Below, one piece after another: positions 1 through 51,917 of a DNA stretch of 64,000 bases (position 1 is its first letter; each line of letters starts with the position of its first letter). A program made the position numbers and the translations under genes. This stretch comes from Verrucomicrobiaceae bacterium (GTDB taxonomy: Bacteria; Verrucomicrobiota; Verrucomicrobiia; Opitutales; Intestinicryptomonadaceae): assembly GCA_015061955.1 (NCBI GenBank), contig SUVO01000002.1:1-64000 (forward strand). Direction: 5' to 3'. The notes under the pieces were generated by a model. The model saw only the letters and a program-made list of their open reading frames with translations. It ran no database searches and had not been told where the DNA came from.

Positions 1-129
1 TTTTTTATTAAATAAACTCATCAAAGAAAACGTTTTGCCCTCCATTTTGGTTTTAGCTTCGACTGCAGTGCGTAGCACAGCAACGCTCGCTAAAACGCAA
101 AAGCATCGGGACAATCTCGCACGTTTTAC
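1..129. repeat. Branched inverted-repeat element, subfamily 2, left-truncated by the window edge (copy a)
   Basis: Bases 1-129 match the right part of the complete copy at 51667-51869 almost base for base. Visible parts are the descending strand of arm A (AAACTCATCAAAGAAAAC), arm B with a GTTTTAGC/GCTAAAAC stem closing a loop that contains GTGCGTAGCAC, and the outer right strand TCTCGCACGTTTTAC at 115-129. The left outer strand and the internal terminator lie outside the window. No ORF is supported. Confidence 0.8.
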
Positions 130-243
130 TTCTTACAATCCATGTTGGTTCTAATCTGATTTTTTTAATATAACCATCATCAAAGTAAGCTTCTCACAAT
201 TTTGAAAAAGTCGGTTTATAATAAACGTGGGAGTCCGAATAGT

Positions 244-440
244 AAAAACGGGTGTGGTGTCTGCTAAAAACGTGCTTTTGCGAGCGTGAGCGACCTATGG
301 TCGTGAGTCGAAGCAAAAGTGCGTTTTTAGCTACAAGCACCACGTGGGCAAGCTATATACAAAAAAGGCTATTCCAAGAATAGCCTTTTACCATTATATA
401 TTAAAAATATTGCCCACGTGGTGCGTCCACACCCGTTTTT
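244..440 (-). repeat. Branched inverted-repeat element, subfamily 1 (copy b)
   Basis: Outer strands 244-257 (AAAAACGGGTGTGG) and 427-440 (CCACACCCGTTTTT) are perfectly complementary. Inside are two arms. One is GCTAAAAACG pairing with CGTTTTTAGC, with a GCGACC/GGTCGT-type tip. The other is CACCACGTGGGCA pairing with TGCCCACGTGGTG, which flanks a terminator-like hairpin (GGCTATTC/GAATAGCC followed by T residues). The linkers read AGACA, CTTGTA and ACG on the minus strand and are identical in the copies near 14.6-15.0 kb, although the stem sequences differ. The orientation is opposite to those copies. Confidence 0.8.
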
Positions 441-447
441 AAAAAGA

Positions 448-475
448 GGGCGATGTATGCTAAAATACATCGCCC
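448..475. other. Strong hairpin next to branched repeat
   Basis: GGGCGATGTAT at 448-458 pairs perfectly over 11 bp with ATACATCGCCC at 465-475, with a 6-nt loop. No T-tract follows on either side, so it is not a convincing intrinsic terminator. It lies between copy b and the first gene. The remaining AT-rich bases 476-615 contain nothing else I can support. Confidence 0.5.
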
Positions 476-615
476 CTATATTTATGGGATTATGAGAAAA
501 CCTTATTTTACTAAGGTACGTTTATAGTCGATAAAATACTGTTATATGTCAATAAAAAATGAATGTTAGAATAGTAAAAAAGTGTTGAAGATAAACGAAT
601 ATTTGTCAGTATAAC

Positions 616-1875
616 ATGCGTATGAAAAAAATTGTATTGTGGTTTATTTCAATTTTAGCAGTTGCATTGATATCGTCGTGCGGTGTTGTAAAAGAAGGTA
701 CATTGAAAAACGATGAATCTAAACTTTGGTCGATTGGTCAAGAGATGTCGTTTTTCTCGAAGTATGGAGTCGATGCAAAGGTTTTGCGCAACGATGAATC
801 TATGCTGATATATTCGCCAACGTATCAGGGCAGAGTTTTTACATCGGCATTTGGTGATGAAAACGCTCCAAGTATTGGTTGGTTTAATCGTGAGGCAGTT
901 GGATTGCGTCAGGTTAACTTGCGAAACACTTTGATTGGTGGTGAAGATGTATTTGCTATAGGTCCGGAAGGTGGCGATTGTTCTATATTTTTTGAGCAGG
1001 GTGCTTTGTTTACTGAAGAAAATAGAAAATTGCCTGAAATTCTTTCTACTCAAGCTTGGAAATTGGTATCGCGTTCAAAAACTCAAGTTCGTTTTGAATG
1101 CGAAGGTAAGGTTGTGAATGCTTTGGGCAAAAAGTTTGATGTTAAGGCAGAGCGCGAAGTTTCGTTGTTGTCGCGTACTGATGTAAGTAAGATTTTGGGT
1201 ATTGAAATTCCAATGAATTTGAAATTGGTAGCTTTTCAATCAATGAATAAACTTACTAATGTTGGCTCAGATAATTGGTCGGAGCAGTATGGTATGTTGA
1301 ATATGGGTGTAAAAAGCTATTTCAATGCAAATAAAACTGTTAATACTTTTGTTCCATTCCGTCCTGGTGATGCATCGAAGTTAGGCGATGTTGTTAGAGA
1401 TAACGTTTTTGATACAGCTTCGGGTGGAACGCTTGGTGGTGAACGTGTAGCAGTGCTTGACGATTACATTCGTTTTAAGTGCGACGGCAGACATATGTCG
1501 GGTATTGGTGTAAGTGCTCGCCGAAGCGAAGGTATTGTGCTTAGTTATGACGACAAGAATTCTATATTAACTATGATTTTCTATATAAAGCCATCGGGTA
1601 ATAGAGCGTATTTCCCAGTATCGTGGCGTAATTCGCAAGCAGGTTTTGATGGCGATGCAATTAGCGTTTTCAATAACGGCCCAGCTTCAAAAAATATATA
1701 TTATGCCGATATGTTTTACGAAATTTCAACGCACTCGCCTGCGTTAAATTTAGTAAAGGGCAGAAGTCAGTTTCACTTGCAACGTACATTCCACTTCCAT
1801 GGTTCTGAGTACGACTTAGATTTGTTGGCATACAAATTGACAGGTATTTCGCTTAAACAATTACGTGTAAAATAA
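616..1875 (+). CDS. Secreted lipoprotein, possible DUF6786-type protein
   Basis: A 419-residue protein with a lipoprotein signal: basic start, hydrophobic segment and lipobox ISSC with Cys22. An in-frame Met at residue 3 is an alternative start, and no clear Shine-Dalgarno is visible for either. The mature part is rich in beta-strand patterns. The opening 'SPTYQGRVFTSAFG...IGWFN' resembles my recollection of DUF6786, a mutarotase-like beta-sandwich family seen in Planctomycetes and Bacteroidota; that assignment is tentative. The stop is one base before the M42 peptidase start, so the two and hemD probably form one transcript. A carbohydrate-related periplasmic role would be a guess from fold resemblance only. 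Confidence 0.7.
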   Translation: MRMKKIVLWFISILAVALISSCGVVKEGTLKNDESKLWSIGQEMSFFSKYGVDAKVLRNDESMLIYSPTYQGRVFTSAFGDENAPSIGWFNREAVGLRQVNLRNTLIGGEDVFAIGPEGGDCSIFFEQGALFTEENRKLPEILSTQAWKLVSRSKTQVRFECEGKVVNALGKKFDVKAEREVSLLSRTDVSKILGIEIPMNLKLVAFQSMNKLTNVGSDNWSEQYGMLNMGVKSYFNANKTVNTFVPFRPGDASKLGDVVRDNVFDTASGGTLGGERVAVLDDYIRFKCDGRHMSGIGVSARRSEGIVLSYDDKNSILTMIFYIKPSGNRAYFPVSWRNSQAGFDGDAISVFNNGPASKNIYYADMFYEISTHSPALNLVKGRSQFHLQRTFHFHGSEYDLDLLAYKLTGISLKQLRVK

Positions 1876-1876
1876 T

Positions 1877-2926
1877 ATGGAAAAATTTTTAATTGATCTT
1901 TTGGAATCACGTTCGCCTACTGGTTCAGAAACCGAGGCGGCGAATGTGATTGAAAAATATGTAAAACCAGTTGCCGATTCGTTTGAAAAAGATGTTTTGG
2001 GCAATAGAATAGCATCGTATGGAAAAGGCAAAAAAACTTTGATGTTAGCTGGTCATATCGATGAAATTGGTTTGCAGGTTTCGTATATAGATAATAATGG
2101 CTTTTTGTTCTTCCAGCAGTTGGGTGGACACGATAACGTTATGGTGTCGGGGAGAGCCGTTTGTATTTTGACAGATAATGGTATAGTGCGTGGTGTAACA
2201 GGCAAACGTGCAATTCATTTGATGGACGCAAAAGAACGTAAAGAAGTGCCTGAAACTCATCAGATTTGGATTGATATTGGTGCTACAAGCCAAAAAGAAG
2301 CAGAGGAAATGGTTTCGATTGGCGATGCAATAGTTTACGAAACTCCAATAGTAAAGATGTCTAATAACCGATATGCAGCACGAGCTTTTGATGATAAAGC
2401 AGGGGCTTTTGCTGTTTTTGAAACTTTGCGTCGTGTTGCTAAAGCTAAGGCTAAGTGCGATTATAAACTTGTGAGTGTTGGCACTACTCAAGAAGAAATT
2501 GGTACTCGTGGGGCAATTACATCGGCTTACTCTGTAAATGCCGATGTTGCTATCGCTGTCGACGTAACACATGCTACCGACTTCCCAACGTGCGATGTTC
2601 GCAAGTTTGGGTCGATAAAACTTGGTGAAGGTGTGGTAATATCGCGTGGTCCAAATTTAAATCCTAAGGTTACATCGCGATTGATAGAATTGGCTAAGAA
2701 GAATAAAATTCCATATCAAATTGAAGCAGAACCACGTCCGACTGGTACTGATGCACGCGCTATTCAGGCTACGCGTTGTGGTATTCCTACCGGACTTTTA
2801 AGTATACCTCTTCGTTATATGCACACACCTTGCGAAGTTGCAAATAGCAACGATATCAAAGCATGTGTTGATTTGTTAGAGGCTTTTGCTAAATCACTCA
2901 AGAATAAAGACGATTTTACTTTTTAA
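1877..2926 (+). CDS. M42-family aminopeptidase
   Basis: A 349-residue co-catalytic metallopeptidase of the M42 (glutamyl aminopeptidase / tetrahedral aminopeptidase) family, normally a cytoplasmic oligomer that trims peptides. The expected metal and catalytic residues are in order: H60 and D62 (AGHIDEIG), D172 (AFDDKAG), E206-E207 (TQEEIGTRG), D229 (AVDVTH) and H316 (RYMHTPCE). Length is typical. It begins one base after the upstream lipoprotein stop, and hemD begins one base after its own stop, which indicates co-translation in one operon. Family members have been annotated as glucanases, but the motifs here are peptidase motifs. Confidence 0.92.
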   Translation: MEKFLIDLLESRSPTGSETEAANVIEKYVKPVADSFEKDVLGNRIASYGKGKKTLMLAGHIDEIGLQVSYIDNNGFLFFQQLGGHDNVMVSGRAVCILTDNGIVRGVTGKRAIHLMDAKERKEVPETHQIWIDIGATSQKEAEEMVSIGDAIVYETPIVKMSNNRYAARAFDDKAGAFAVFETLRRVAKAKAKCDYKLVSVGTTQEEIGTRGAITSAYSVNADVAIAVDVTHATDFPTCDVRKFGSIKLGEGVVISRGPNLNPKVTSRLIELAKKNKIPYQIEAEPRPTGTDARAIQATRCGIPTGLLSIPLRYMHTPCEVANSNDIKACVDLLEAFAKSLKNKDDFTF

Positions 2927-2927
2927 T

Positions 2928-3686
2928 ATGGCTCGCGTATTATTGACCCGTCAGGATAACTCGGCAGTATCTAAGATTTTAAAAAAATCTGGTGTGGATT
3001 GTTTAGATATGCCTTTAATAAATTGTGCGTTTGAAGTTAATACCGATGATGCTATTGATATTTTTGGCGAATTGAGTGGTTATGATTGGCTCACATTTTC
3101 AAGTCCCAATGCTGTAAAAGGTTTTTTTAAGGCATTCTTTAAAGAGTTTAAAGATATTCGTTCGCTTGGTATTGCGCGTATTGCATGCGTAGGCGAGGCT
3201 ACAGCAAAGGAATTGTCGAAGTTTTACTTGTGTGCCGACGTTATTCCAGAAAAGCAAACTGGTATTGATATGGTTGAGGCTATGCACAATTTTGAGAGCT
3301 TAGATAATTTGCGTGTATTATCGGTACGAGGTAATTTAGCATTGCCCGATGTTTTAAAAGCTCTTGATGAAAAACGAGCAATAGTTGATACTTTTGAAGT
3401 TTACAAAACCGTATTATTGAGTTTGAACGACACCGATAAAACTCTTATAGATTTTAAAAAGAATGGTGCCGATGTTGTTGTTTTTGCAAGTCCATCGGCT
3501 GTACAAAGCTTTGTTAATAATGCTTCAAAGTTGGCACTTTCTGATAAAGCTGTTCGTCCAAAGATTGTTGCTATTGGCTCAACAACGGCTGAAGCAGTAA
3601 AGAAGTATTCAATGAACGTTGTATCGGTTGCACAATCGCCTTCTCCTGAAGATATAGCAAAGGCTGTTCTTGAGCTTTTAAAATAG
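2928..3686 (+). CDS. hemD: Uroporphyrinogen-III synthase
   Basis: A 252-residue HemD family protein that would cyclise hydroxymethylbilane to uroporphyrinogen III in haem synthesis. HemD is poorly conserved in sequence, but both halves show the typical pattern: LLTRQ at the start, 'FSSPNAVKGF', 'IACVGEATAKEL', 'ASPSAVQSF' and 'VAIGSTTAEAVKK'. The ATG at 2928 is chosen because it aligns with the family N-terminus and lies one base after the M42 stop; a longer in-frame start at 2886 would overlap that gene. No other haem genes are adjacent, so hemD is separated from the rest of its pathway here. Confidence 0.85.
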   Translation: MARVLLTRQDNSAVSKILKKSGVDCLDMPLINCAFEVNTDDAIDIFGELSGYDWLTFSSPNAVKGFFKAFFKEFKDIRSLGIARIACVGEATAKELSKFYLCADVIPEKQTGIDMVEAMHNFESLDNLRVLSVRGNLALPDVLKALDEKRAIVDTFEVYKTVLLSLNDTDKTLIDFKKNGADVVVFASPSAVQSFVNNASKLALSDKAVRPKIVAIGSTTAEAVKKYSMNVVSVAQSPSPEDIAKAVLELLK

Positions 3687-3704
3687 TTCGTTGTTTTTAG
3701 ATAC

Positions 3705-3737
3705 AAAAAAAGATGCAGATTGTCTGCATCTTTTTTT
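3705..3737. terminator. Bidirectional terminator between hemD and topB
   Basis: AAAGATGCAGA (3709-3719) and TCTGCATCTTT (3723-3733) form a stem with a 3-nt loop. Runs of A on the left and T on the right give a U-tract to transcripts from both converging genes. Confidence 0.9.
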
Positions 3738-3741
3738 GTTG

Positions 3742-6210
3742 TTATTTGTCTTTTTTATCGTCTTTTTTCTGTGGGGTACGTTTTGCAAATTCAAACGCAA
3801 TACCATTTTTTGCATCGAGAACCAAAGATGCCGAAAATTTCTTTTTAGTTCTGTTAGATACAAAATCTTCAATGAGAGGTGTTTTACCTGTAGTGCAAAG
3901 ACTATTTATTTCTTCAAGTGTAATTTGGTGTGAAAGCATTATTTTTTTCAAACTAAATTTACACTCTTTATTAGGTGCATTGTCGCAACGACATACATAT
4001 GCAACACCCGTATCTACAAGCTTGGCACCCTGACAATTACACAATTTCATTGCGCATTTTGGACAATCTGCAACTACTGGAGCATTTGTTATATCGATAG
4101 GTTGATTTTCAAATTCAATCTTTACAGAATTATTTTCATCGAGTATCAATTTTGCAGAATAATCTTTATTTGTTTTGCTACTGCGAAAACCTTCCAACGG
4201 ACCAATCTCACGTTTTTCAATAAGCTCTTTTATTTCTTCTGGGCTCATTTGACGATTTCCGATAGTTTTATATATTACAAACTGACCATCTTTCGACTTA
4301 TACGAACGAAATGTTTCAAGCAAATACGAACCATCTATTGGGCTTTTAATATCGCTTTCGTGCGTTTCCAAGTTGTCTTCTTTGAAGTTCTTGGTTTTAT
4401 CGATAATTTCACCTGTCATAGCCTCGATACCCTTCATGAACTCATCTCGTGAAAGCTCATTTTTTTCGATTAGGCGCAACTTATATTCCCATTCACCAGT
4501 CATTGTTGGGCTTGTTAACGCATCAATCGAAAGCACATCAAGAAATGTTATCAAGCGTTCTGCCTTTGGAGTTGGAAATAAATCTCTACGCTGACGTTCA
4601 ACAAACTTGTGTGTAATTAAGTTTTCGATAATCGTTGCACGAGTAGCTGGAGTACCTAATCCTTTTTCTTTCATTGCAGCCGACAATTCTTCATCATCGA
4701 GAAGTTTGCCAGCACCTTCCATTGCCGAAAGCAAAGTTGCTTCATTATAACGAGCAGGTGGTTTTGTTTGCTCTTGCACCATTGAAACTTCTAAAATAGA
4801 AGCATCTTCTGGTTCCTTAACTAAGGCAGGGAGCGAATTCTTTTCATCAGTTTCTTTATTGTAAACATCTAACCAACCAGCAACTCGCAATACTTTACCT
4901 TCGCTTTTGAATGCGTGGTTTGATGCTGTTGTTGTACGCACTGTAACATCGAACTGCGCTTCTGGGTAGAAGGCTGCTATAAATCTACGTGTAATCATAT
5001 CGTAGATTTTATGTTCATCGTCTGTTAGTTTTTGCGACGACAATCCAGTTGGAATAATCGCAAAGTGGTCGCTGACTTGTTTTGAATCGAATATTCTTTT
5101 GCCAGCTTTTTTTACGTAATCTTCGTCTAATGCTTTTTTTGCGTGTACTTCGTACTCACCATCAAGTGCCGACAACGTTTTGACTGCAACGCCTCTGTAA
5201 TCATCGGGCAAAGCTCGTGAGTCTGTACGTGGATAAGTTATGAGTTTATGTTTTTCGTACAAAGACTGTGCTATTGATAACGTTCTGTTTGCTGGCAACG
5301 AATATTTGTTATTTGCTTCTCTTTGCAACGATGTTAAATCATACAAACGTGGAGGATTTTGCTTAGATAGAGTTTTCTTATCTACAGCCTTTGCTGTTTT
5401 GCAAGCTCTTACTTCTTCGAGTATTACCGAAACGTCTTTGTGTTCCCAAATTCTATCGGCTTTATCGTTTGGTTTTTTTGCTGATTGTTTGAAGTCTGGA
5501 CGCTGATAAACGCCTTCGTAAACGCCATTTTCTACTTCAAATTTTGCAGTGATTTTCCAATATGTTTGTGGCTTGAATTTTTGAATTTCACGTTCACGTT
5601 CAACAATCATTGCCAAAGTTGGAGTTTGAACTCTGCCAACGCTTGTTATTTCTTTACCACGAGTCCCCATTTTTATAGTCAAGGCACGAGTACCGTTCAT
5701 TCCAACCAACCAGTCCGATTCGCTTCTGCAACGGGCTGCATCTTGCAACGACTTCATCTGCTCTTGGCTTCTGAGATTTTCAAAGGCTTCTAATATTGAT
5801 GCAGGGGTCATCGACGACACCCACAATCTTTGCGATGGCAATTTACACTTTGTAATTTCGTAAATATAGGTAAAAATAAGCTCACCTTCACGACCAGCAT
5901 CGCATGCGTTTATTACGCCATCAATATCTTTTCTACCCATCAATTTTTTCAACGAAGTCAACTTCGACTTTGTTTTTTCTATGGGCTTTAACTCAAACTT
6001 ATTTGGGATAATAGGCAACGATGCCAACGACCAACGACCGAACTTTTTATCGATATCATCTGGTTTAAACAATTCAACAAGATGACCTACTGCAGACGAT
6101 ATTACATAGTTTTCATTTTCATAATAATCGTCGTGCTTTTTTGCTTTTCCCAATACTCTTGCTAAATCAGCAGCTACCGACGGTTTTTCGGCTATGATTA
6201 GTTTCTTCAT
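3742..6210 (-). CDS. topB: DNA topoisomerase III (type IA)
   Basis: An 822-residue type IA topoisomerase that relaxes or decatenates DNA through a 5' phosphotyrosine. The N-terminal Toprim domain shows E8 (IIAEKPS) and DAGREGE at 104-110. The active tyrosine is Y326 in ITYPRTDSR. 'SVGRVQTPTLA' near 190-200 is the conserved domain II motif, and 'YSLPANRTLSIAQSLYE' is typical of TopB. Compared with about 650 residues for E. coli TopB, it carries a C-terminal extension with at least two topoisomerase C-terminal repeats (from about 625 and 770) separated by a Cys-rich stretch (CPKCAMKLCNC). It is transcribed toward hemD and ends at a shared terminator. Confidence 0.95.
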   Translation of the reverse strand: MKKLIIAEKPSVAADLARVLGKAKKHDDYYENENYVISSAVGHLVELFKPDDIDKKFGRWSLASLPIIPNKFELKPIEKTKSKLTSLKKLMGRKDIDGVINACDAGREGELIFTYIYEITKCKLPSQRLWVSSMTPASILEAFENLRSQEQMKSLQDAARCRSESDWLVGMNGTRALTIKMGTRGKEITSVGRVQTPTLAMIVEREREIQKFKPQTYWKITAKFEVENGVYEGVYQRPDFKQSAKKPNDKADRIWEHKDVSVILEEVRACKTAKAVDKKTLSKQNPPRLYDLTSLQREANNKYSLPANRTLSIAQSLYEKHKLITYPRTDSRALPDDYRGVAVKTLSALDGEYEVHAKKALDEDYVKKAGKRIFDSKQVSDHFAIIPTGLSSQKLTDDEHKIYDMITRRFIAAFYPEAQFDVTVRTTTASNHAFKSEGKVLRVAGWLDVYNKETDEKNSLPALVKEPEDASILEVSMVQEQTKPPARYNEATLLSAMEGAGKLLDDEELSAAMKEKGLGTPATRATIIENLITHKFVERQRRDLFPTPKAERLITFLDVLSIDALTSPTMTGEWEYKLRLIEKNELSRDEFMKGIEAMTGEIIDKTKNFKEDNLETHESDIKSPIDGSYLLETFRSYKSKDGQFVIYKTIGNRQMSPEEIKELIEKREIGPLEGFRSSKTNKDYSAKLILDENNSVKIEFENQPIDITNAPVVADCPKCAMKLCNCQGAKLVDTGVAYVCRCDNAPNKECKFSLKKIMLSHQITLEEINSLCTTGKTPLIEDFVSNRTKKKFSASLVLDAKNGIAFEFAKRTPQKKDDKKDK

Positions 6211-6323
6211 ACTATAGTTATTGTTCGTTTTCCCAAATAATTAAATGTTTTATAAATGAAAAAAGCTTTGATTATATTACAAAGCTGAATTTTTTATTTT
6301 TACTTGGCTGTTTTTTATACTAT

Positions 6324-6349
6324 CTATGCACTTCAAACGAAGTGCATAG
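6324..6349. other. Hairpin downstream of the aminotransferase gene
   Basis: CTATGCACTTC and GAAGTGCATAG form a perfect 11-bp stem with a 4-nt loop, 14 bp past the stop of the minus-strand aminotransferase gene. A T-run does not follow immediately on the minus strand (A/T-mixed bases then six A), so it may stabilise the 3' end rather than terminate. Confidence 0.55.
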
Positions 6350-6362
6350 AGTAAAGATTTTA

Positions 6363-7442
6363 TTATTTCTTAAATTCTGCCAAAATCGTGTCGAGATTGC
6401 CGAGCAACTCTTTCATCGATTCTTGAGTTTCATCACCCATATTCGAGATACGGAATGTTTTGCCCTTAAGCTTACCATAACCACCATCGATAGCCATGTT
6501 ATAGCGCTTTTTCAATTCCGAATTTACGCCAGCGATGTCGATTTCAAGATTATTTGCAAAGCAGTTGAGTGCAACCGAGCCATACTTTTCTTCTGGGAAG
6601 AGTTTAAAGCCATGGTTATAACCCCATTCACGAACAAGCTTATTATTAGCTGCATGACGTGCATAACGATTTTCAACACCTTCAGCAAATATATCGTCGA
6701 GCTTGCTATTGATTGCGTAAATCAAGCTGATAACTGGTGTTGATGGTGTTTGATTTTTATCAAAGAACTTCTTGAATTCGAGGAAATCGAAATAGTAACC
6801 ACGACCTTCTGTTTTAGATGCACGTTCCATAGCCTTATCAGATACCGACAAGAACGACAATCCTGGAGGGCATGCCAAAGCTTTCTGCGAACCTGTTACC
6901 ATAACATCGATACCCAATTCATCTTTCTTAATAGGCAATGTTGAGAAAGAGCTTACTGTATCAACAATTGAGATAACTTCTGGATATTTTCTTACAACTT
7001 CCATAACTGCAGCAATGTCGGTCATTGTGCCTGTTGAAGTTTCGTTATGGATAATTGTGATAGAGTCGAACTTGCCAGTTGACAAAGCCTTATCAACAGC
7101 TTCTGGATCAACTGGTTTACCCCAATCGAATTGGAGGAATTCTGCATCTTTACCACAACGTTTTGCAACGTCGAACCATTTGTCTGAGAATGCGCCATTA
7201 CCACAGTTGAGCACTGCTTTTTGTGTAACGTTTCTCAACGAACCTTCCATTATACCCCAAGACGAACTTGTGCTTAAGAATACAGGGTCTTTAGTATAGA
7301 ACAACTGTTGCATTCTTGGTACTACATTACCTGCAAGTTCTGCAAACTCAGGCATTCTATGACCCATAATTGGGGTAGCCATTGCCTTATATGTTTTTTC
7401 AGATACATTGATTGGTCCGGGGATATATAATTTGTATGCCAT
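6363..7442 (-). CDS. Class V PLP-dependent aminotransferase (serine-pyruvate / alanine-glyoxylate type)
   Basis: A 359-residue fold-type I aminotransferase. The N-terminus 'YIPGPINVSEKTYKAM' followed by 'GHRMPEF' is characteristic of the serine-pyruvate/alanine-glyoxylate transaminase group. The PLP lysine is K187 in TGSQKALACPPG, and D161 (VDTVSS) would contact the pyridine nitrogen. Related proteins include archaeal-type phosphoserine aminotransferases and so-called soluble hydrogenase small subunits, so substrate cannot be fixed from sequence. It lies 41 bp downstream of panD on the same strand and may be co-transcribed. Leu CTC and Gly GGT codons are frequent, suggesting good expression. 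Confidence 0.88.
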   Translation of the reverse strand: MAYKLYIPGPINVSEKTYKAMATPIMGHRMPEFAELAGNVVPRMQQLFYTKDPVFLSTSSSWGIMEGSLRNVTQKAVLNCGNGAFSDKWFDVAKRCGKDAEFLQFDWGKPVDPEAVDKALSTGKFDSITIIHNETSTGTMTDIAAVMEVVRKYPEVISIVDTVSSFSTLPIKKDELGIDVMVTGSQKALACPPGLSFLSVSDKAMERASKTEGRGYYFDFLEFKKFFDKNQTPSTPVISLIYAINSKLDDIFAEGVENRYARHAANNKLVREWGYNHGFKLFPEEKYGSVALNCFANNLEIDIAGVNSELKKRYNMAIDGGYGKLKGKTFRISNMGDETQESMKELLGNLDTILAEFKK

Positions 7443-7483
7443 AATTTTTATTTCTGTTAAGTTAAATTTTTATTGATGCTTTA

Positions 7484-7855
7484 TTACGAAATCATATTTT
7501 GCGATTTCACAATCTTTGTGTTGTTTTCAGCCAAAGTTATTGTGCGTGGAAGAACATCTTTAGCCTTCTCAAGTTCGACTTGTGCAAACGACATTATAAC
7601 TAATAAATCGCCTGCTGTGCCTAAATGACCTGCTGCACCTCTTATTGAGAAAGTTTTACTTCCACGTTCGGCTGGAATGGCGTACGTTTCAAAGCGTTTA
7701 CCATTGTTGATGTTTCCTACTAATATCTTCTCATATGGAAGCATACCTACCTTATCCATGAGGTCTTCGTCGATGGCGAGCGACCCCTCGTAATCGACTC
7801 GGACATCGGTTGCGGTGGCTCTGAGAATTTTTGACTTTAAGACTTGTACCAACAT
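7484..7855 (-). CDS. panD: Aspartate 1-decarboxylase (pyruvoyl enzyme)
   Basis: A 123-residue PanD, which makes beta-alanine from L-aspartate for pantothenate and CoA synthesis. From the chosen start (MLVQVLKSKILRATAT) the self-cleavage site is G24-S25, the same position as in E. coli, where Ser25 becomes the pyruvoyl group. K9, R54-region and 'GAAGHLGTAGD' segments match the family. A longer start eight codons upstream exists but would extend past the usual N-terminus. panB and panC are not in the window. A promoter with TTGACG and TATCAG lies just upstream. Confidence 0.93.
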   Translation of the reverse strand: MLVQVLKSKILRATATDVRVDYEGSLAIDEDLMDKVGMLPYEKILVGNINNGKRFETYAIPAERGSKTFSIRGAAGHLGTAGDLLVIMSFAQVELEKAKDVLPRTITLAENNTKIVKSQNMIS

Positions 7856-7881
7856 TTCTAATGCGATAATTAAAAACACTA

Positions 7882-7909
7882 CTGATACTACACTTTACAG
7901 TTTCGTCAA
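7882..7909 (-). promoter_or_regulatory. Putative panD promoter
   Basis: On the minus strand TTGACG (7909-7904) and TATCAG (7887-7882) are separated by 16 bp, 27 bp upstream of the panD ATG. The match to a sigma70 consensus is moderate. Confidence 0.5.
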
Positions 7910-8011
7910 CTAAAAAAAACGTTTGCACTTCTGTATCATTACAAAAAGGTGTTTTTTTTGATGTTGATGATGTACTTGATAAGTTGTTGCATAATAGGGT
8001 ATTGCGATATT

Positions 8012-8041
8012 TTGATGTGCGCTAAAGAAAGTTTGTATAAT
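8012..8041 (+). promoter_or_regulatory. Putative promoter for the secreted repeat protein gene
   Basis: TTGATG (8012-8017) and a perfect TATAAT (8036-8041) are spaced by 18 bp. The gap 7856-8198 otherwise contains only very AT-rich sequence. The long leader (about 150 nt) to the ATG at 8199 shows no stable structure that I can identify. Confidence 0.5.
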
Positions 8042-8198
8042 TTCTATTTTATTTAGAGTTTTCTTTATTTATATATTGAAATCTCTTATACCTCAAATAA
8101 ATTTTTCTATTGATTTCGTTTAAAAAAGCTTTACTTCTTTTGGAACGTTTTTTACATGTTTTTAATTTCCAAATTTTTAAGCTTTTTTATATAGAACT

Positions 8199-10349
8199 AT
8201 GAAATATATTTTTATTATCTTACTTTCTTTATATGTTGTATCTTTTTCTTTTGCTCAAGAAACTTTTCCCAAATTAGAAAAATTTAAAAAAGTTTCAAAA
8301 ACATCGAATGCTGAGGAGTGTGTAGATTATTTAGAAAAAGCTATAAAAAAGAGACATTCTCAAGCACAAATTTTATTTGATAAGTTTTTTGCGGAATTAG
8401 ATGTAAAATATAAAGAAGGGAAAATAGACAATAGCGATTACAACGATTTGTTAGAGCGTTTAGCCGAAACTGGGTATGTAAATGCCCAATACAAATATGC
8501 AGAACTTTTACTAAAGAAATTTAGAACAAAACTTAAGGAATCGAATGGAGAGGAGTGCGTGGATTATTTAAAAAAAGTTATAAAAAAGAAACATCCTCAA
8601 GCGCAAGCTTTATTTGATGAATTCCTTAAGGAATTAGATTCCAAATGTAAAGGTAGAAGTTTTTACAACGATTTGTTAGAGCGTTCAGCTGAAACAGGGT
8701 ATGTAAATGCTCAATATAAATATGCAGAGCATTTATTAAAGAAATTTAAAATAAAACTTAAGGAATCGAATGGAGAGGAGTGCGTGGATTATTTAAAAAA
8801 AATTATAAAAAAGAAACATCCTCAAGCGCAAGCTTTATTTGATGAATTCCTTAAGGAATTAGATTCCAAATGTAAAGGTAGAAGCTTTTACAACGATTTA
8901 TTAGAGCGTTCAGCCGAAACAGGGTATGTAAATGCTCAATATAAATATGCAGAGCATTTATTAAAGAAATTTAGAACAAAACTTGAAAAATCGGATGGAA
9001 AGGAGTGTATAGATTATTTAGAAAAAGCTATAAAAAAGAAACATCCTCAAGCACAAGCTTTATTTGATGAATTCCTTAAGGAATTAGATGTAAAATATAA
9101 AGAAGGGAAAATAGACAATAGCGATTACAACGATTTGTTAGAGCGTTCAGCTCAGACTGGATATGGAAATGCCCAATACAATTATGCGTTGTATTTATTT
9201 AAAGCTACAAGTGGGAAATATAGGAATGTAAATAATAGTATATATTATTTGAAAAAATGTTTAGAAAAATTACCAGAAGAAAAAGATTTATGTATCGAGG
9301 CAAAAAAGTTTTATATTCAGTTATCTGATTGGGGATATATTGCTAAGCCTAAGAAAGTTATAAAGAGAGAATTTGTTGCAAAATCACCCAAAGTTCAAAT
9401 AGTAAAATATGCGACAGAAGAAAAGAAACTCGATCAATATAGAAAAGATGTTGACGAATATAATAAGAAATTATCTATAAAACAAAAAAAGTCCCTAATT
9501 TGTAAATGGGAAAAAAATGAAAAATGGAAACATTATAATTTATTATTGGAAAAAAAGATGTTTCGTGAGGTAGCCGACTTATGTTTTGCTAAACGTTTTC
9601 ATCAAGATTCATTTGAAAGAATAAAATATGTTTCAAGTTACATAAATAACTATTTGTCTGAAAATGAAATATCCGATGATTTTAAAATAGAATATCTTGT
9701 TAAGTTTTCAGAGTTGGTTAATTCTTCTATTGTACATACGGATGAAGATTGGGTTGAGAAATGGATTATATCCATGGATAACGATGGCAAAATAATAAAA
9801 AATAATAAAAAAGAATCGTCTTTGTTTAGGATAACAAGTGTAGATGAACGCATAAATAAGTATAATGAGTATAATAATATAAGGTATCTAATGAAAAAAT
9901 TAGATTCCATCCTAAGCGAATGGATAGTGAATAATGAATTCGATGACTTAAAAAAAACAGAGGAAGTGATTGGTTATAAGAAAGGGACTTTTGTCAAAAT
10001 AAAGAAATTTCTATCTCTGCAAAGATGTAATTATATGTCATATGTGTATTATGGTCCTCGTTTTATAAAAACATATATTGGGGTTTCTTTGTGGAATAAA
10101 AAAACTTCATATTTAAGTGTCTTTTTTTCTTGTCAAGATGTTGATAGCTTGGAAAAAGAATTGGAAGAATTGCAAATGGGCAATATGTATAGAGAAAGTT
10201 CTCGTAATATACGTAGGTTTTGGTTTGAAGTTCTTATACCTGCTGTAAAAGACAAAATTACAGAACGTTGTTATAACGAAATAACGGCAAAGATTGTTAA
10301 CAGAAACGAAGATGATGGAGCAAGAGTTTGGTATAATTGGTCCGAATAA
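8199..10349 (+). CDS. Secreted protein with four tandem Sel1/TPR-like repeats, unknown function
   Basis: A 716-residue protein with a Sec signal peptide (cleavage expected near FSFAQ, residue 20). Residues about 32-337 hold four tandem units of 75-79 residues containing 'ECVDYLKK', 'HPQAQALFDEF' and 'YNDLLERSAETGYVNAQY', whose helix pairs resemble Sel1/TPR repeats. Units 2 and 3 share the SKCKGRSF variant, whereas units 1 and 4 share KYKEGKIDNSD. The repeats are also near-identical at DNA level, pointing to recent duplication. The C-terminal half (about 340-716) is Lys-rich and unrecognised. The gene is more AT-rich than its neighbours. A second secreted protein gene follows 23 bp downstream. 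Confidence 0.75.
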   Translation: MKYIFIILLSLYVVSFSFAQETFPKLEKFKKVSKTSNAEECVDYLEKAIKKRHSQAQILFDKFFAELDVKYKEGKIDNSDYNDLLERLAETGYVNAQYKYAELLLKKFRTKLKESNGEECVDYLKKVIKKKHPQAQALFDEFLKELDSKCKGRSFYNDLLERSAETGYVNAQYKYAEHLLKKFKIKLKESNGEECVDYLKKIIKKKHPQAQALFDEFLKELDSKCKGRSFYNDLLERSAETGYVNAQYKYAEHLLKKFRTKLEKSDGKECIDYLEKAIKKKHPQAQALFDEFLKELDVKYKEGKIDNSDYNDLLERSAQTGYGNAQYNYALYLFKATSGKYRNVNNSIYYLKKCLEKLPEEKDLCIEAKKFYIQLSDWGYIAKPKKVIKREFVAKSPKVQIVKYATEEKKLDQYRKDVDEYNKKLSIKQKKSLICKWEKNEKWKHYNLLLEKKMFREVADLCFAKRFHQDSFERIKYVSSYINNYLSENEISDDFKIEYLVKFSELVNSSIVHTDEDWVEKWIISMDNDGKIIKNNKKESSLFRITSVDERINKYNEYNNIRYLMKKLDSILSEWIVNNEFDDLKKTEEVIGYKKGTFVKIKKFLSLQRCNYMSYVYYGPRFIKTYIGVSLWNKKTSYLSVFFSCQDVDSLEKELEELQMGNMYRESSRNIRRFWFEVLIPAVKDKITERCYNEITAKIVNRNEDDGARVWYNWSE

Positions 10350-10372
10350 AAAAGCGACGATTTTTTATTTGT

Positions 10373-11605
10373 ATGAAACGTATAATTTTTATAATTACAA
10401 TGTTTTGTATTGCATTCTTAAGTTTCGCAAAGGACTTTAATGGTCATTTTATGGACATAAAAAAAGTCTTTCCTGGGTATTGTCAATGTGAAAAATTTAA
10501 AAAAATTTGTAAATTAATAAGCAATGGTATGGATAATACTTTGCCTAAGGCATATAGAGATTCATACATAAAAATACCCGATAATCACAGATTGGTTGGT
10601 CATATGTGGGAATTCAATAGTGATGTGCCAAAAGAAACGTTACAAGAAATTTTAAATAGCAATCCAGGCAAAACCAAAACAGAAATAATGAAAGTTTATA
10701 GTGATTGGAAGAAACAGTTGTTAAGCGATGTTCAAAAAATTACAAATCTTTCAACTAAGAGAACAAAACATTTGGTTGGCCTTATTTGGGACATTCATTT
10801 ACTTGGGGATTTAACGACTACTCGAAGTGATTTAGTTTTACCGATTTCTGAAATTAAAAAATATATAGTAAATAACATAGAAGAATTATTTGGGCATTCT
10901 TCTCAATATAGACTTAATATTTCTAGTTTAAAAAAAATAGAAACCCCAGATGAGATTATTAACTACTTGAGAAAAAGTAATATAGATAGGGCATTAAACG
11001 AATGCTATGGAAAGTCTACAACAATTAAATATAAAGATATGGCGAAAGAGACGATTGAATATATAAAATCGCATAACAATTTTAAAAATTTATTTATAGC
11101 AAATATTGACAATATTAGGAATGGAATAGGATCAAAGAAAACCATACAGTGTAAAGCATATCCAGTAAGAAGAGTGCCTCTAAATATGGGTTATTTTGTT
11201 CCTATTGTAGGGGGAGAATGTTTGTTCTTTTTTGTAGATGTAGCAAAGAATAGTATTTCATATTCAAATAGTCGGATCTCTACTTATGAATTTATTAATG
11301 CGATAAAAAAAGATGTTTTAATGGCTGATGCATGTATTACTATTACATTGATGTTAGACTACTTAGGTCCTGCAGGCTGGTGTGTTTCTGGCGTCGTTGT
11401 TGCAGGTGCTGTTATTCATCAAATAAGAGAAAATATTGATGCTTATAAATATAATATGACCTTAGATGATATTAGAAAATGGAATAAAGATTCTGTGTAT
11501 GAGGATTCTCCATTTTATGATACAAATACGAGAAAGATTCTGTTTGATTTCCCTTATATATATGATCATCCATTCTTTTCCCATCCTACATGGAATACGC
11601 ATTAG
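10373..11605 (+). CDS. Secreted protein of unknown function with HLLGD motif
   Basis: A 410-residue protein from the ATG at 10373, chosen because it gives a clean signal peptide (MKRIIFIITMFCIAFLSFA); an earlier in-frame start would overlap the preceding gene. Residues 133-146 read 'HLVGLIWDIHLLGD'. The H142-x3-D146 pattern, with D52, H72 and H77 upstream, faintly recalls S1/P1 nuclease and zinc phospholipase C metal sites, but the downstream ligands are not evident, so I do not assign that family. A hydrophobic, Gly-rich segment near 330-365 could cross a membrane. It is very AT-rich and adjacent to the repeat protein, so the two may act together. Confidence 0.65.
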   Translation: MKRIIFIITMFCIAFLSFAKDFNGHFMDIKKVFPGYCQCEKFKKICKLISNGMDNTLPKAYRDSYIKIPDNHRLVGHMWEFNSDVPKETLQEILNSNPGKTKTEIMKVYSDWKKQLLSDVQKITNLSTKRTKHLVGLIWDIHLLGDLTTTRSDLVLPISEIKKYIVNNIEELFGHSSQYRLNISSLKKIETPDEIINYLRKSNIDRALNECYGKSTTIKYKDMAKETIEYIKSHNNFKNLFIANIDNIRNGIGSKKTIQCKAYPVRRVPLNMGYFVPIVGGECLFFFVDVAKNSISYSNSRISTYEFINAIKKDVLMADACITITLMLDYLGPAGWCVSGVVVAGAVIHQIRENIDAYKYNMTLDDIRKWNKDSVYEDSPFYDTNTRKILFDFPYIYDHPFFSHPTWNTH

Positions 11606-11703
11606 ATTCTTTTTTTTATGTTGTTTTGTTATTGTCTAAATCAAGATAGATATAAATAATTAACTTAATTTAATTATTAACTTGTAAATTAAATTTTTAC
11701 TTT

Positions 11704-12582
11704 ATGCAAGATAACAACAAAAAAACTCTGTTAGAATACATAGCTTTATTTGGGGCATTTATCGGTTTTGCCCCTATGTTATTCTTTTTGTTTCAAGGCT
11801 TAACTGAAAGCCCCCAATTGCGCGACGCTGTTGTTATTCTTTGTTCGGCTCTGTTAATGATTGCCATAGAATATAAAATAAAACCCAATTTCCCAAAGTT
11901 TTCGCACAACGTAATTGTATTTTTAGCTTTTAGTTACATTTTCTTATTTTTCAACAATTATGTAGTTCGACCAAACTTTGAAGTGTTTGCATCGTTTATT
12001 CCTGTTGAGGTTGTATATTTATTTTTTATTCTTATAATGTTTTTAGCTTTCGCATGTTTTATTGCGGCTGTCGGGTTTTCCATGTTTAAATCGAAACGAT
12101 ACGTTTTAGCTGTATCGGGTGGTTTTTTTTCGTTCTCAATTTTATCGATAATTTTTCAATTTGCCGATTTACCTTTGCGAATATGGGCAGGCAGAACTGC
12201 TGGATACGTTTTAGCTTTTTTTGGCGAGCATGTTCGCTTATTACTATATAAGGGCGAAATTCCTCAAATTGCACTTCGGGTTAATGAGCAAAGTTATTTA
12301 GTTGCTACCGAATGCAATGGTTTTGGGATTATTTCATCGTGCTTGGTATTATCGGTAGTTATTGCTATTTTCAGAAAAACAGGAATTTTAAACCGATTAT
12401 TAGCTATTTTATTTGGTATTATAATTGGTTTTATTGCCAATACATTGCGAATTGTATCTATTATAAGCGTATCTCTATTAGTGGGTAATAAGCACTACTA
12501 TTTTTATCACGAAGCACTTGGATATTTGTTTTTCATTGGCACGCTAATTATTGTGTGGAAACTTATTTCGAACAAAAAATAA
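11704..12582 (+). CDS. Exosortase / archaeosortase family protein
   Basis: A 292-residue polytopic inner-membrane protein with about eight hydrophobic segments. The exosortase catalytic triad is visible: C204 in VATECNGFG, R249 in ANTLRIVS and H269 in FYHEALGY. Exosortases are transpeptidase-like enzymes that recognise PEP-CTERM signals on secreted proteins. Two clear PEP-CTERM substrates occur in this window at about 50 and 53 kb, plus a truncated one near 34.7 kb, so the sorting system is functional in principle. It stands alone, not inside an exopolysaccharide cluster as in the classic EpsH type. The gene is preceded by a very AT-rich gap with no recognisable promoter. Confidence 0.9.
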   Translation: MQDNNKKTLLEYIALFGAFIGFAPMLFFLFQGLTESPQLRDAVVILCSALLMIAIEYKIKPNFPKFSHNVIVFLAFSYIFLFFNNYVVRPNFEVFASFIPVEVVYLFFILIMFLAFACFIAAVGFSMFKSKRYVLAVSGGFFSFSILSIIFQFADLPLRIWAGRTAGYVLAFFGEHVRLLLYKGEIPQIALRVNEQSYLVATECNGFGIISSCLVLSVVIAIFRKTGILNRLLAILFGIIIGFIANTLRIVSIISVSLLVGNKHYYFYHEALGYLFFIGTLIIVWKLISNKK

Positions 12583-12803
12583 CTTTTTGTTGCTACTTTT
12601 CTATTTTTAGCCGATTTTAATTTCTATTGTTTTTACGAATATTTGAGTAGATAAACTTAAAAAAGTGTACAATTTTGTATCTTTTTAGGTTATTTTTTTG
12701 AATTTTTGAAAAAAATGATTGAATAAAACTCTAATCAATGTAGAACAAATGAGATTTTTTATTAAATCGCGATTACTTTCTAAATAAACAAGGAAAAAAC
12801 GAA

Positions 12804-14594
12804 ATGATAGATCCTAATACAGTAAAAAACAAGGCCCTTGTCGCTTGGGTTGACAAATGGGCAGCACTCACAACTCCAGACAATGTCGTATGGTGCGACG
12901 GTTCGCAAGAAGAAGCTGACATGCTCTACAATCAAATGATTGCTAAGGGTGCATGTATCAAGCTTAATCAGGAAAAACGTCCTGGTTGCCACTTGTTCCG
13001 TTCAGACCCACGTGACGTTGCTCGCGTAGAAGCACGCACTTTCATTTGCTCGAACACAAAGCAAGAAGCTGGTCCAACAAACAATTGGATGGATCCTAAG
13101 GAAATGAAGCTCAAGCTTAACGACCTCTTCAAAGGTTGTATGAAGGGCAGAACAATGTATGTTATCCCATTTAGCATGGGTCCAATTGGTGGTCCAATCT
13201 CGCAGATTGGTATCGAAATTACAGACTCGCCATACGTTGTTGTAAGTATGAGAATTATGGCTCGTGTTTCGCCAAAGGTTCTCGAAGTTCTCGGCGAAAC
13301 TGGCAAATTTGTTCCTTGCGTTCACTCGGTTGGTAAGCCAATCAACACTCCTGAAGATGATGTTGCATGGCCATGCAATCCAGAAAACACATACATCACA
13401 CACTTCCCAGAAACACGCGAAATCATCAGCTTTGGTTCTGGTTATGGTGGTAATGCATTGCTCGGTAAAAAGTGCTTCTCGCTCCGTATTGCATCTGCAA
13501 TGGGTAAGGCTGAAGGCTGGATGGCTGAACACATGCTCATCTTGGGCGTAACTGATCCTAAGGGCAGAAAGAGCTATGTAACAGGCGCATTCCCATCGGC
13601 TTGTGGTAAAACAAACTTTGCTATGCTCATTGCTCCTAAGGAATTGCAAGACAAGGGTTGGAAAATTACTTGCGTTGGTGACGACATTGCTTGGATTAAA
13701 CCAGGTCCAGACGGCAGACTCTATGCTATCAACCCAGAAAATGGTTTCTTCGGTGTTGCTCCAGGCACAAGCATGAAGACAAATCCAAATGCATTGCTCT
13801 CATGTGCTAAGAATACTATCTTTACTAACGTTGCTCTTACAGACGATGGTGACGTATGGTGGGAAGGTATGACAAAAGAAAAACCTGCACACCTCATCGA
13901 CTGGCTCGGTAACGATTGGACCCCAGAATCAGAAACTCCAGCTGCTCATCCAAACAGCCGTTTTGCTGCTCCTATCGAAAACTGCCCATGCTTAGACGAA
14001 AATGCTGAAAAGCTCGAAGGTGTTCCTGTTTCGGCTATCGTTATTGGTGGTCGTCGTCCAAAGGGTATTCCTCTCGTATTTGAATCGTTCAACTGGACAC
14101 ATGGTGTATACCTCGGTGCTATGATGGGTTCGGAAAGAACTGCAGCTGCTGAAGGTAAACAGGGCGAGCTCCGTTCAGACCCAATGGCTATGTTGCCTTT
14201 CGCTGGCTACAATATGGCTGACTATCTCGGTCACTTAGTTTCTATGGGCAAGGGCTTGAGCCAAACTCCACGTTTCTACCACGTTAACTGGTTCCGTCGT
14301 GACGAAAATGGCGACTTTATGTGGCCTGGTTTCGGTGCTAACGCTCGTGTTCTCGCTTGGATTGTAAACCGTCAGTATGGCGAAGCTAAGGCTAAGGAAA
14401 CTGCAATCGGTTTTGTTCCAAATTACGACGACATCGATTGGGACGGCATGGAATATTCAGCAGACACATTTGCTGAACTCATGAGCTACGATGCTGAAAC
14501 TGTAGCAGCTCAACCACTCAAGGAAGAGTTGTACGACCAGCTTCCACATTCGCTCAAGGTTGAGCGTGAAGCTCTCCTCGAACGTCTCAGCTAA
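12804..14594 (+). CDS. pckG: Phosphoenolpyruvate carboxykinase (GTP)
   Basis: A 596-residue GTP-dependent PEPCK, interconverting oxaloacetate and phosphoenolpyruvate. The GTP-type signature FPSACGKTN contains the P-loop and reactive C267. '[12 protein letters not shown]', '[10 protein letters not shown]' and '[10 protein letters not shown]' are other family blocks. AAGGAAAAAACGAA precedes the ATG, a good ribosome binding site by local standards. Codon use is strongly biased (Leu CTC, Arg CGT, Pro CCA), unlike most genes here, which suggests very high expression, perhaps in PEP carboxylation during anaerobic fermentation. The stop codon overlaps the first base of a branched repeat that contains a terminator hairpin. 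Confidence 0.97.
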
Positions 14595-14791
14595 AAAACG
14601 TGTGTGGACGCACCACTTTGCGAATAAGGATTTAAATAATGGTAAAGTAGGCAATATCATTGCCTACTTTTTTTATTTAAATTCGCAAAGTGGTGCTTGT
14701 AGCTAAAAGAGCGTCTGCTCGGGTGGGCAGTGCGTAGCACAGCTCCACCAACTCGCAAACATCTCTTTTAGCAGACACCACACACGTTTTT
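14594..14791 (+). repeat. Branched inverted-repeat element, subfamily 1, abutting pckG (copy c)
   Basis: Outer strands 14594-14607 and 14778-14791 pair (AAAAACGTGTGTGG with CCACACACGTTTTT). Arm A is CACCACTTTGCGAA with TTCGCAAAGTGGTG and encloses GTAGGCAATATCATTGCCTAC plus seven T, a good intrinsic terminator for pckG. Linker CTTGTA follows. Arm B is GCTAAAAGAG with CTCTTTTAGC, with GTGCGTAGCAC in its tip. Linker AGACA closes the structure. Compared with copy b, the stem sequences changed on both sides so that pairing is kept, while the linkers did not change. Confidence 0.85.
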
Positions 14792-14990
14792 AAACGTGCG
14801 AGGGCGGTGCCTCGATTACAAATTTTTTATATTATAACGATGAAAAGGCAATTCTTTGGAATTGCCTTTTTTTGTATTAGATTGCCCTCGTGGTGCTTGT
14901 AGCTAAAAACGCACTTTTTCTTCGATTAGCGTACATAGTACGCCTACACTTGAAAAAGCACGTTTTTAGCAGACACCACACACGTTTTTT
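14792..14990 (+). repeat. Branched inverted-repeat element, subfamily 1, tandem to copy c (copy d)
   Basis: The right half is intact: GCCCTCGTGGTG, linker CTTGTA, arm B (GCTAAAAACG with CGTTTTTAGC, inner CTTTTTC with GAAAAAG, tip GCGTAC/GTACGC), linker AGACA and outer strand CCACACACGTTTTT ending at 14990. An internal terminator-like hairpin (AAAGGCAATTC/GAATTGCCTTT) is present. The left outer strand is eroded: AAACGTG runs directly into CGAGGGC, as if the ACG linker and part of arm A were deleted. It begins at the base after copy c. Confidence 0.8.
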
Positions 14991-14997
14991 ATTTCCC

Positions 14998-15240
14998 GTT
15001 CCTATGTTGGTTCTAATCTAACTGCTAATATTTTATATTATAGAGATAAGAGCATTCCGTTTGGAATGCTCTTTTTGTATATAGATTGAACTCGCTCGCA
15101 CGGTGGTGCTCGTCTCGCCCTTTGGGTCTTTGCTTCGCAAAGCTTCCCCCAAAAGCTTTACTGCGTAAACTTTTGTGTTCACAATCGAGGTACCTCACAG
15201 CTTATGGAGCGTTTGTTCTAATCTGATTTAGTTAGGCAAA
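14998..15240 (+). repeat. Degenerate branched inverted-repeat element (copy e)
   Basis: This stretch aligns with copy d over the AT-rich part (TATTTTATATTATA), a hairpin AGAGCATTCC/GGAATGCTCT with T-tract, and GTGGTGCTCGT in place of GTGGTGCTTGT. GTTCTAATCTA at 15009-15019 can pair with TAGATTGAAC further right. Arm B is replaced by other small hairpins such as CTTTGCTTCGCAAAG and AAAGCTTTAC/GTAAACTTT. A further GTTCTAATCTGATT and a TTAGGCAA/TTGCCTAA hairpin follow. No ORF is supported between 14595 and 15356. Confidence 0.6.
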
Positions 15241-15356
15241 GGTACATTGCCTAACAATCTTATCGCTTATCAATAATTAAAAGTGGTATCTGAAATTGTT
15301 ATTTGATTTTTTATTGCGATTGTGTTAATGTAGTACAATTAACATTACAAAAATAT

Positions 15357-49647: not shown

Positions 49648-49807
49648 AACGTGCGAGAGCGCGTTTTCTTTGATGATGAGTTTTAATTTATACCATAAGG
49701 CACTTCAACGAAGTGCCTTTTTTTTATTAAATAAACTCATCAAAGAAAACGCTTTGCCCTCCATTTTGGTTTTAGCTTCGACTGCAGTGCGTAGCACAGC
49801 AACGCTA
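49645..49807 (+). repeat. Branched inverted-repeat element, subfamily 2, 3'-truncated (copy f)
   Basis: It begins on the polB stop codon with TAAAACGTGCGAGAGCG (outer left strand), then arm A with GTTTTCTTTGATGATGAG and its partner CTCATCAAAGAAAAC around an AAGGCACTTC/GAAGTGCCTT terminator with eight T. Arm B begins normally but breaks off after GCAACGCT at about 49807, so the outer right strand is missing. Apart from single substitutions it equals copies a and g over shared parts. The terminator probably serves polB. Confidence 0.85.
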
Positions 49808-49867: not shown

Positions 49868-49871
49868 TTGA

Positions 49872-51638: not shown

Positions 51639-51665
51639 CTTGTAGCTAAAAACACACCCGTTTTA
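51639..51665 (+). repeat. Remnant of a subfamily 1 branched repeat
   Basis: CTTGTAGCTAAAAA joined to CACACCCGTTTTA reproduces the CTTGTA linker with the start of arm B fused to the outer right strand. Most of arm B and the AGACA linker are missing, as after an internal deletion. It lies directly left of copy g. Confidence 0.6.
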
Positions 51666-51666
51666 T

Positions 51667-51869
51667 GTAAAACGTGCGAGACCACGTTTTCTTTGATGAT
51701 GAGTTTTAATTTACACTATAAGGCACATCAATGAAGTGCCTTTTTTATTAAATAAACTCATCAAAGAAAACGTTTTGCCCTCCATTTTGGTTTTAGCTTC
51801 GACTGCAGTGCATAGCACAGCAACGCTCGCTAAAACGCAAAAGCATCGGGACAATCTCGCACGTTTTAC
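51667..51869 (+). repeat. Branched inverted-repeat element, subfamily 2, complete (copy g)
   Basis: Outer strands GTAAAACGTGCGAGA (51667-51681) and TCTCGCACGTTTTAC (51855-51869) pair over 15 bp. Arm A (GTTTTCTTTGATGA... with ...TCATCAAAGAAAAC) encloses the terminator AGGCACATCAATGAAGTGCCT plus T-tract. Arm B is GTTTTAGC/GCTAAAAC extended by TTTTG/CAAAA, with GTGCATAGCAC in the tip. Fourteen bases to the right is TATGTTTATTCTAAGCTGATT, similar to sequences right of copies a, d and e. Confidence 0.85.
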
Positions 51870-51917
51870 CTTTTCCAACCTATGTTTATTCTAAGCTGAT
51901 TAGAAGAATTATTATAC

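Follow-up and report, generated by a model that had tools for sequence, protein, structure and literature searches.

A family of folded intergenic repeats whose lead copies mostly begin at TAA stop codons in a Verrucomicrobiaceae bacterium

Copies of the repeat in the window and the genome

The DNA analyzed here (the window) corresponds to the initial 64 kb of contig C8 in the 2.43 Mb genome assembly of a Verrucomicrobiaceae bacterium, which comprises 35 contigs and is 93% complete. Its intergenic regions carry members of a family of folded repeats, each about 195 bp long with a tail of about 30 bp, which are present in dozens of chromosomal copies. The strongest regularity of this family, which an earlier sequence-only reading of the stretch had missed, is the fusion of the left end of the element to stop codons. 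In copy c, for instance, the PEPCK gene (12804-14594) ends with the TAA at 14592-14594. The elements and element fragments of the window are listed below, with bit scores referring to the covariance model described further on.

1..161, plus strand: right part and tail (ACTTCTTACAATCCATGTTGGTTCTAATCTGATT) of a type-2 unit truncated at the start of the contig; 94% identity to query positions 102-262 of 51640-51910.
244..440, minus strand: copy b, a full type-1 unit with the arm A variant GTGGGC and the arm B apex GACCATAGGTC; 205.3 bits.
~14592..14791, plus strand: copy c, a full type-1 unit with the arm A variant TTTGCGAA and the arm B apex GTGCGTAGCAC; 207.5 bits.
14646..14675 (approximate limits), plus strand: predicted intrinsic terminator in arm A of copy c, GTAGGCAATATCATTGCCTAC followed by a T-run; from sequence and fold.
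14792..14990, plus strand: copy d, a tandem unit in which a type-3 left half is joined to a type-1 right half; 146.4 bits.
15027..15253, plus strand: degenerate piece of arm A with a terminator, and a further tail/hairpin remnant; covariance-model match at 15027-15087.
49645..49806, plus strand: type-2 unit without its right end; TAA at 49645-49647 is the stop of the open reading frame (ORF) 47458-49647.
51640..51664, plus strand: type-1-like remnant CTTGTAGCTAAAAACACACCCGTTTT, recognized by eye.
51668..51901, plus strand: full type-2 unit (51668-51866) and its tail; matches type-1 model positions 1-194 at 51670-51866 with E 3.3e-13.

The three types of unit share a common plan, in which an outer stem encloses two arms and an intrinsic terminator lies within arm A. 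A type-1 unit is composed, in order, of the outer stem, the linker ACG, arm A with its terminator-like hairpin, CTTGTA, arm B, AGACA and the outer stem again. The quasi-palindromic ends of the repeat read AAACGTG.../...CACGTTT. Type-3 units start with AAACGTGCGAGGACGGTGTCTCGATTGCGA, and a shared tail terminating in CTATGTTGGTTCTAATCTGA is found behind units. Two type-2 units, L138 and L150, measure about 278 nt and have an extra hairpin-rich stretch inside arm B. The sequence-only reading had described b, c and d as three copies of one plan. This is true of b and c, which fold as described, have the linkers ACG, CTTGTA and AGACA in common, and differ in their arm A stems, each of which is self-complementary (GTGGGCAA/TTGCCCAC in b and TTTGCGAA/TTCGCAAA in c). 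It does not extend to the chimeric copy d, whose left half (AAACGTGCGAGGGCGGTGCCTCGATTAC...) represents a different type without CACCAC, and whose arm A does not pair in the way proposed. The predicted fold energies are -96.3, -99.9 and -72.0 kcal/mol for b, c and d, respectively, and the opposite strand of b gives -105.1 against a shuffled mean of -47.6 (z -14).

A covariance model built from 17 type-1 units recovered 111 matches in the organism's own genome, a count in which partial units and palindromes read from the opposite strand are included, and it matched type-2 and chimeric units over their full length. The type-1 core GTGGTGCTTGTAGCTAAAA has 41 genome matches at no more than two mismatches (reversed-sequence control, 0), and a type-2 query found around 36 further strong places at E <1e-19 by manual count. 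The proposal of a family of structured intergenic repeats with many copies and constant linkers is borne out, and the family is larger than had been noted. Six other covariance-model matches (C5:117830, C5:101702, C7:24375, C18:61853, C26:56069 and C21:77376) are short, weak and terminator-sized. At least 28 of the 70 contig ends lie no more than 250 bases from a match to the element; such breaks of the assembly at elements imply that both element number and array lengths are underestimated.

Tandem arrays are frequent, with 15 of 67 left ends placed directly after another unit; lead units are intact, and partial units often lie behind them. The units possess terminal inverted repeats, the terminal 12 bases pairing at 11-12 positions in 28 of 32 lead units. 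The remaining four (L139, L166, L168 and L169) score 4-5, the script having trimmed their right ends one base short; the right ends of L139 and L166 additionally contain base changes, and the two ends of L169 are unlike. The flanks of tandem units have TA/TAA in common, and the constant tail past the right end obscures a reading of this as a duplication.

Stop codons and terminators at the left ends

Left ends were located by element sequence alone and afterwards checked for a nearby ORF end. In 44 of 68 cases (67 plus L147) the A-run of the element follows a T, and the two together spell the in-frame TAA with which an ORF of 90 or more codons ends. The other 24 comprise 15 left ends behind another unit, four behind element remnants (by eye), one at a contig start and four others, namely b, L153, L154 and L174 minus. 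Among these, copy b, an exception to the stop-codon rule, sits behind the T-run of a hairpin, and L153 shows a TAA, one C and then the A-run, following an ORF of 76 codons. The covariance search supplied eight further copies, six of which adjoin a TAA (C4:31375, C35:10423, C2:50768, C23:21715, C24:107860 and C10:127); the two without an adjoining stop are C24:55000, where the ORF continues into the element, and C22:13873. In total, 50 of 56 left ends without preceding element sequence start exactly at the TAA stop of the 5' ORF, or 50 of 60 if the four left ends behind remnants, excluded from the 56, are scored as misses. Three of the 47 rows in the list of ORF ends had been dropped (one ORF running through the preceding unit and two that are not gene ends). 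For comparison, the window contains 36 TAA stops and 494 other intergenic TAA triplets, so that about 7% would be expected if any TAA served. Opposite-strand readings of the unit ends (82 rows) gave no adjoining stop. The stop is TAA at all 50 positions, yet 13 of 49 ORFs in the window end in TAG or TGA.

The 5' genes include those for PEPCK, GroEL, RecA, GAPDH, TPI, MetRS, sodium pyrophosphatase, ThrRS, ClpP, FabH and sulfhydrylase, and a further ten proteins, two of them without a Pfam match, include Rho, fumarase and a GreA/GreB-domain protein. These are dispersed core genes and do not form a cassette array. Nine of the 44 preceding proteins end in AYRRRK, which we take to be a PEP-CTERM-like C-terminal end. 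Interspersed repeats near gene ends are known; what is new is that most lead copies lie at zero distance from the stop, behind groEL, recA, rho, gapdh and other core genes.

This placement could be the work of a mobile element addressed to stop codons, which inserts with single-base precision behind the coding sequence, in the sense orientation, and gives the gene a new terminator. Its machinery would recognize the end of the ORF (the TAA together with the state of transcription or translation), and new copies would enter gene-proximally, pushing older, decaying units downstream. Arrays would thus grow by repeated insertion at one stop, their youngest member adjoining the gene. The excess of exact fusions over the 7% yardstick, the uniform use of TAA although other stops occur in the window, and the intact lead units with partial ones behind them all speak for such an address. 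Set against it, neither a Y1 transposase nor RVT_1 nor any other enzyme for it was found in the searches of the genome described below. Furthermore, 23 of 24 orthologues in the comparison genome G004 also end in TAA (one in TAG), so that the TAA bias partly predates the element, and the outer stem pairs nearly as well in trailing units (n=10) as in lead units (n=32). Taken together, we regard addressed insertion as unlikely.

The G004 comparison (26 rows, of which two second matches were dropped from the count of protein ends) allowed the coding ends to be set side by side. In 24 comparisons, 13 proteins end equally, nine are shorter in the element-bearing genome by 1-3 residues and two are longer, indicating that the native stop was kept in at least about half. 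A hairpin with a T-run is present in 43 of the 44 lead copies, and in 39 of these it lies 42-51 nt past the stop, with a median of 47. In the G004 orthologues (n=19), the hairpin lies 0-27 nt past the stop, with a median of 20, a count that omits seven of the 26 rows with no obvious hairpin and T-run or representing a paralogue. In Escherichia coli, a terminator close behind the stop is reported to be repressed by the ribosome, with efficiency rising with distance (PMC4824070). By analogy, the fixed leader of the element would fit such an effect of distance on termination, and we infer that its length aids termination by clearing the ribosome. The terminator of arm A is probably functional, and transcription of the 5' gene would then end in arm A. 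As this terminator and its T-run are contained in arm A, the sequence behind them, namely arm B and the 3' strand of the outer stem, would mostly not be transcribed with the 5' gene; it would be made only in read-through, or might play a role at the DNA level, for instance as ends that a transposase recognizes. The family offers approximately 50 natural terminator replacements, for which the sister-species orthologues keep simple terminators, and the effect of stop-to-terminator distance (~47 vs ~20 nt) on expression and read-through is directly testable here.

Covariation of the stems

The sequence-only reading had stated that the stem partners changed to match. For whole stems this is correct: in type 1 (17 units), 97.8% of cells are paired, as against 89.3% with shuffled partners and 36-48% when the columns are slid by 1-3. 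At the level of individual pairs the claim weakens, with a double change in 13 of 52 pairs compared to a shuffled mean of 10.4 (12 of 500 shuffles reach 13), and with 18 further pair types, below the shuffled 20.1. A kept double change is seen in one of 42 pairs in type 2 and in 12 of 59 pairs in type 3 (8 units). In the outer stem, which is the sole helix closing the branched structure, type 1 shows a kept double change in one of 11 pairs (2 of 17 units); pairing is lost at three others, in 1, 1 and 2 units.

Arm A of type 1 occurs in four sequence states, one of which (in L169) has a matched one-base insertion on both sides. The states of the two arms combine almost freely, A1, A2 and A3 each being found with at least two arm B apices (19 units), which points to module exchange between copies. 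Unlike ends are seen in five of 19 units, including C24:55000, whose right end is unreadable. Four chimeric units with broken stems (d, L146, L152 and L169), taken with the module exchange, show that copies recombine with each other. The double changes appear to represent a few whole-arm haplotypes, spread by block exchange more than by stepwise compensation.

The sequence-only reading took the covariation as a sign of selection for a multi-branched nucleic acid structure, and a family of structured RNAs, acting as regulators in the 3' untranslated region or as processed RNAs, would indeed be expected to show the high pairing, the matched changes in arms A and B and the fixed linkers. Nevertheless, the terminator and T-run precede arm B and the 3' outer strand, the arm haplotypes reassort, the outer stem hardly covaries, and the family is absent from the sister genomes searched and has no Rfam match (see below). 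The proposed selection on the branched structure is not sustained by these data, and we consider a structured RNA family highly improbable.

The covariation could instead be purely mutational, with template switching between the arms keeping the palindromes perfect and with no structural selection beyond that on the terminator. Template switching between repeat arms reportedly makes matched changes and both creates and maintains hairpins, and the persistence of the chimeras with broken stems is consistent with such an origin. On the other hand, the whole-arm haplotypes are common to many loci, which favors copying between loci over local correction. We treat a purely mutational origin as a tentative option; it addresses only how the covariation arose and does not conflict with the explanation favored below, under which the matched stem changes would mostly reflect whole-arm exchange between copies, plus selection on the terminator hairpin. 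The case shows that covariation in a repeat can stem from module exchange without implying a functional RNA.

Distribution, mobilization and likely origin

Searches with blastn matched none of 53 other genomes, 13 of them from the same genus. The covariance model, run on 18 other genomes (12 same-genus) as the sequence-only reading had suggested, returned one weak match (E 0.09) in G004, whose 69 bases cover the arm A/terminator part of the model. No element was found at the 3' ends of nine sister PEPCK genes or of 24 G004 orthologues. Phage records queried with b and plasmid records queried with the array of c-e gave no match. With Rfam 15 at the gathering score, the window yields only a tRNA, and the array at 14580-15260, searched with E up to 1, has nine sub-threshold matches, the best at E 0.042; a described RNA family was dropped as a candidate for want of a match at the gathering score. 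The earlier failure to recognize a described family therefore agrees with these searches, and no description of the family was found in the open-access literature searched. An exact 19-base pattern has one match in a genome contig collection (an archaeal record) and one in viral contigs, both set aside as about two chance matches are expected in 257 Gb; the type-2 pattern has none in viral contigs. In a 400 kb sample of genome G010, no region had three or more other matches, a setting that on the 64 kb window caught only the 225-nt coding repeats described below and not the present elements, and that would notice only families as dense genome-wide as the present one. The family appears to be restricted to one species, given its absence from the sister genomes searched.

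Profile searches for mobilizing enzymes gave no match in the organism's own genome for the Y1 (RAYT/IS200-type) transposase, which was detected in five of 14 control genomes, or for the reverse transcriptase RVT_1, detected in three of 14. The association with a REP-type transposase that the sequence-only reading had proposed to check is thus not seen, and the REP/RAYT reading was dropped. Four tyrosine recombinases are encoded in the genome, two of them XerC/XerD-like (by eye, from size and score); the other two score 27.8 and 30.1 bits against the integron integrase model TIGR02249, whose cut-off is 265. These two, of 343 and 329 amino acids and encoded at L178 (C11:2868-3317) and L179 (C17:17453-17845), are related to each other and are neither XerC/XerD nor integron-type.

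Integron attC sites are folded sites with a species-specific sequence, which lie right behind the stop codons of cassettes. The repeats described here resemble them in lying at stop codons, in being confined to one species and in their folded single-strand geometry, and could be conceived as recombination sites of an integron-like or group IIC-attC system. However, the attC core boxes RYYYAAC (left) and GTTRRRY (right) occur in none of 47 full units on either strand, the recombinases fall far below the integrase cut-off, RVT_1 is missing from the genome, and the genes concerned are dispersed rather than arrayed as cassettes. The group IIC/attC reading was dropped on the core boxes, integron integrase and RVT_1, and is extremely improbable.

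By analogy, the nearest systems in kind are the pneumococcal SPRITE and BOX repeats. In the cited parts of PMC3049150, SPRITE is described as an interspersed repeat with an intrinsic-terminator structure and short AAAA/TTTT ends, nearly confined to one species group, enriched near gene 3' ends and presumed to have been recruited as a terminator; its target-site duplication is likewise not established. SPRITE differs in having one 18-bp duplex with a U-rich tract, in about 30 copies close to the ends of coding sequences (PMC3049150), whereas units of the present family enclose two arms within an outer stem, fall into three types, form tandem arrays and have their left ends at the stop itself. 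BOX shares a modular structure with exchangeable modules and canonical units below ~200 bp, but no fixed-distance terminator behind stops is mentioned in those parts (PMC3049150); the sequence relation to BOX was checked via Rfam only. REP/BIME and GTAG-tagged repeats are likewise palindromic, extragenic and near gene 3' ends, according to the portions cited (PMC3733652, PMC12306157). Of 4,072 predicted REPs in E. coli, 446 are at most 15 nt from a stop (PMC3733652, PMC12306157), REPs at such distances affect translation (PMC12306157), and in some cases a GTAG REP provides the TAG stop (PMC3733652). Unlike the present family, REPs are single hairpins of 20-40 bp tied to RAYT (Y1) transposases (PMC3733652, PMC12306157); here the units are ~195 bp, no Y1_Tnp is found in the genome, the stop is TAA and not TAG, and nearly all lead copies lie at zero distance. 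Zero distance to the stop is not given as a rule for SPRITE, BOX or REP in the cited parts of these sources (PMC3049150, PMC3733652, PMC12306157).

The repeat looks recently spread and mobile, with an unusually precise address. On balance, the family is probably a species-restricted, non-autonomous repeat, similar to a miniature inverted-repeat transposable element (MITE), that has turned into a 3'-end module, the gene-proximal copy terminating the gene before it. Such a repeat would spread by transposition, inserting behind genes, and the gene-proximal copy of each array would take over termination. Several observations weigh against this explanation. Six of the 56 left ends are off any stop (b, L153, L154, L174 minus, C22:13873 and C24:55000). 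The space that separates recA from the convergent sulfhydrylase gene consists entirely of element DNA, with no unique DNA, which implies loss of native 3' DNA there and which plain insertion fails to explain. At some fusions the coding end may have been trimmed; a small loss of this kind is indistinguishable from ordinary variation. No mobilizing enzyme was found among the Y1_Tnp, phage integrase and RVT_1 families searched, DDE families not having been searched. Lastly, no downstream genes are shared with G004 within the stretch compared, and no empty site or target-site duplication has been shown, so that insertion itself is something we infer. Lead copies placed exactly at the stops of core genes would mean that mobile DNA can follow a targeting rule not seen before, or else that the first bases of bacterial 3' ends are under very strong selection.

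Two other features of the window are of note. A tandem 225-nt coding repeat (75 residues), with copies 87-95% alike, lies at 8299-9187 within the ORF 8199-10349. At 49837-49870, a TTGACA is followed by a spacer of 17-19 bases ending in 8-10 G and by a TAGNAT-like -10 box. The same motif occurs in L122, L126, L127, L129, L134, L136, L145, L156, L160, L163 and L164; in the stretches chosen around elements, to which the count refers, it is found at 14 places, mostly just 5' of ORFs with signal-peptide-like starts. These poly-G-spacer motifs look like phase-variable promoters.

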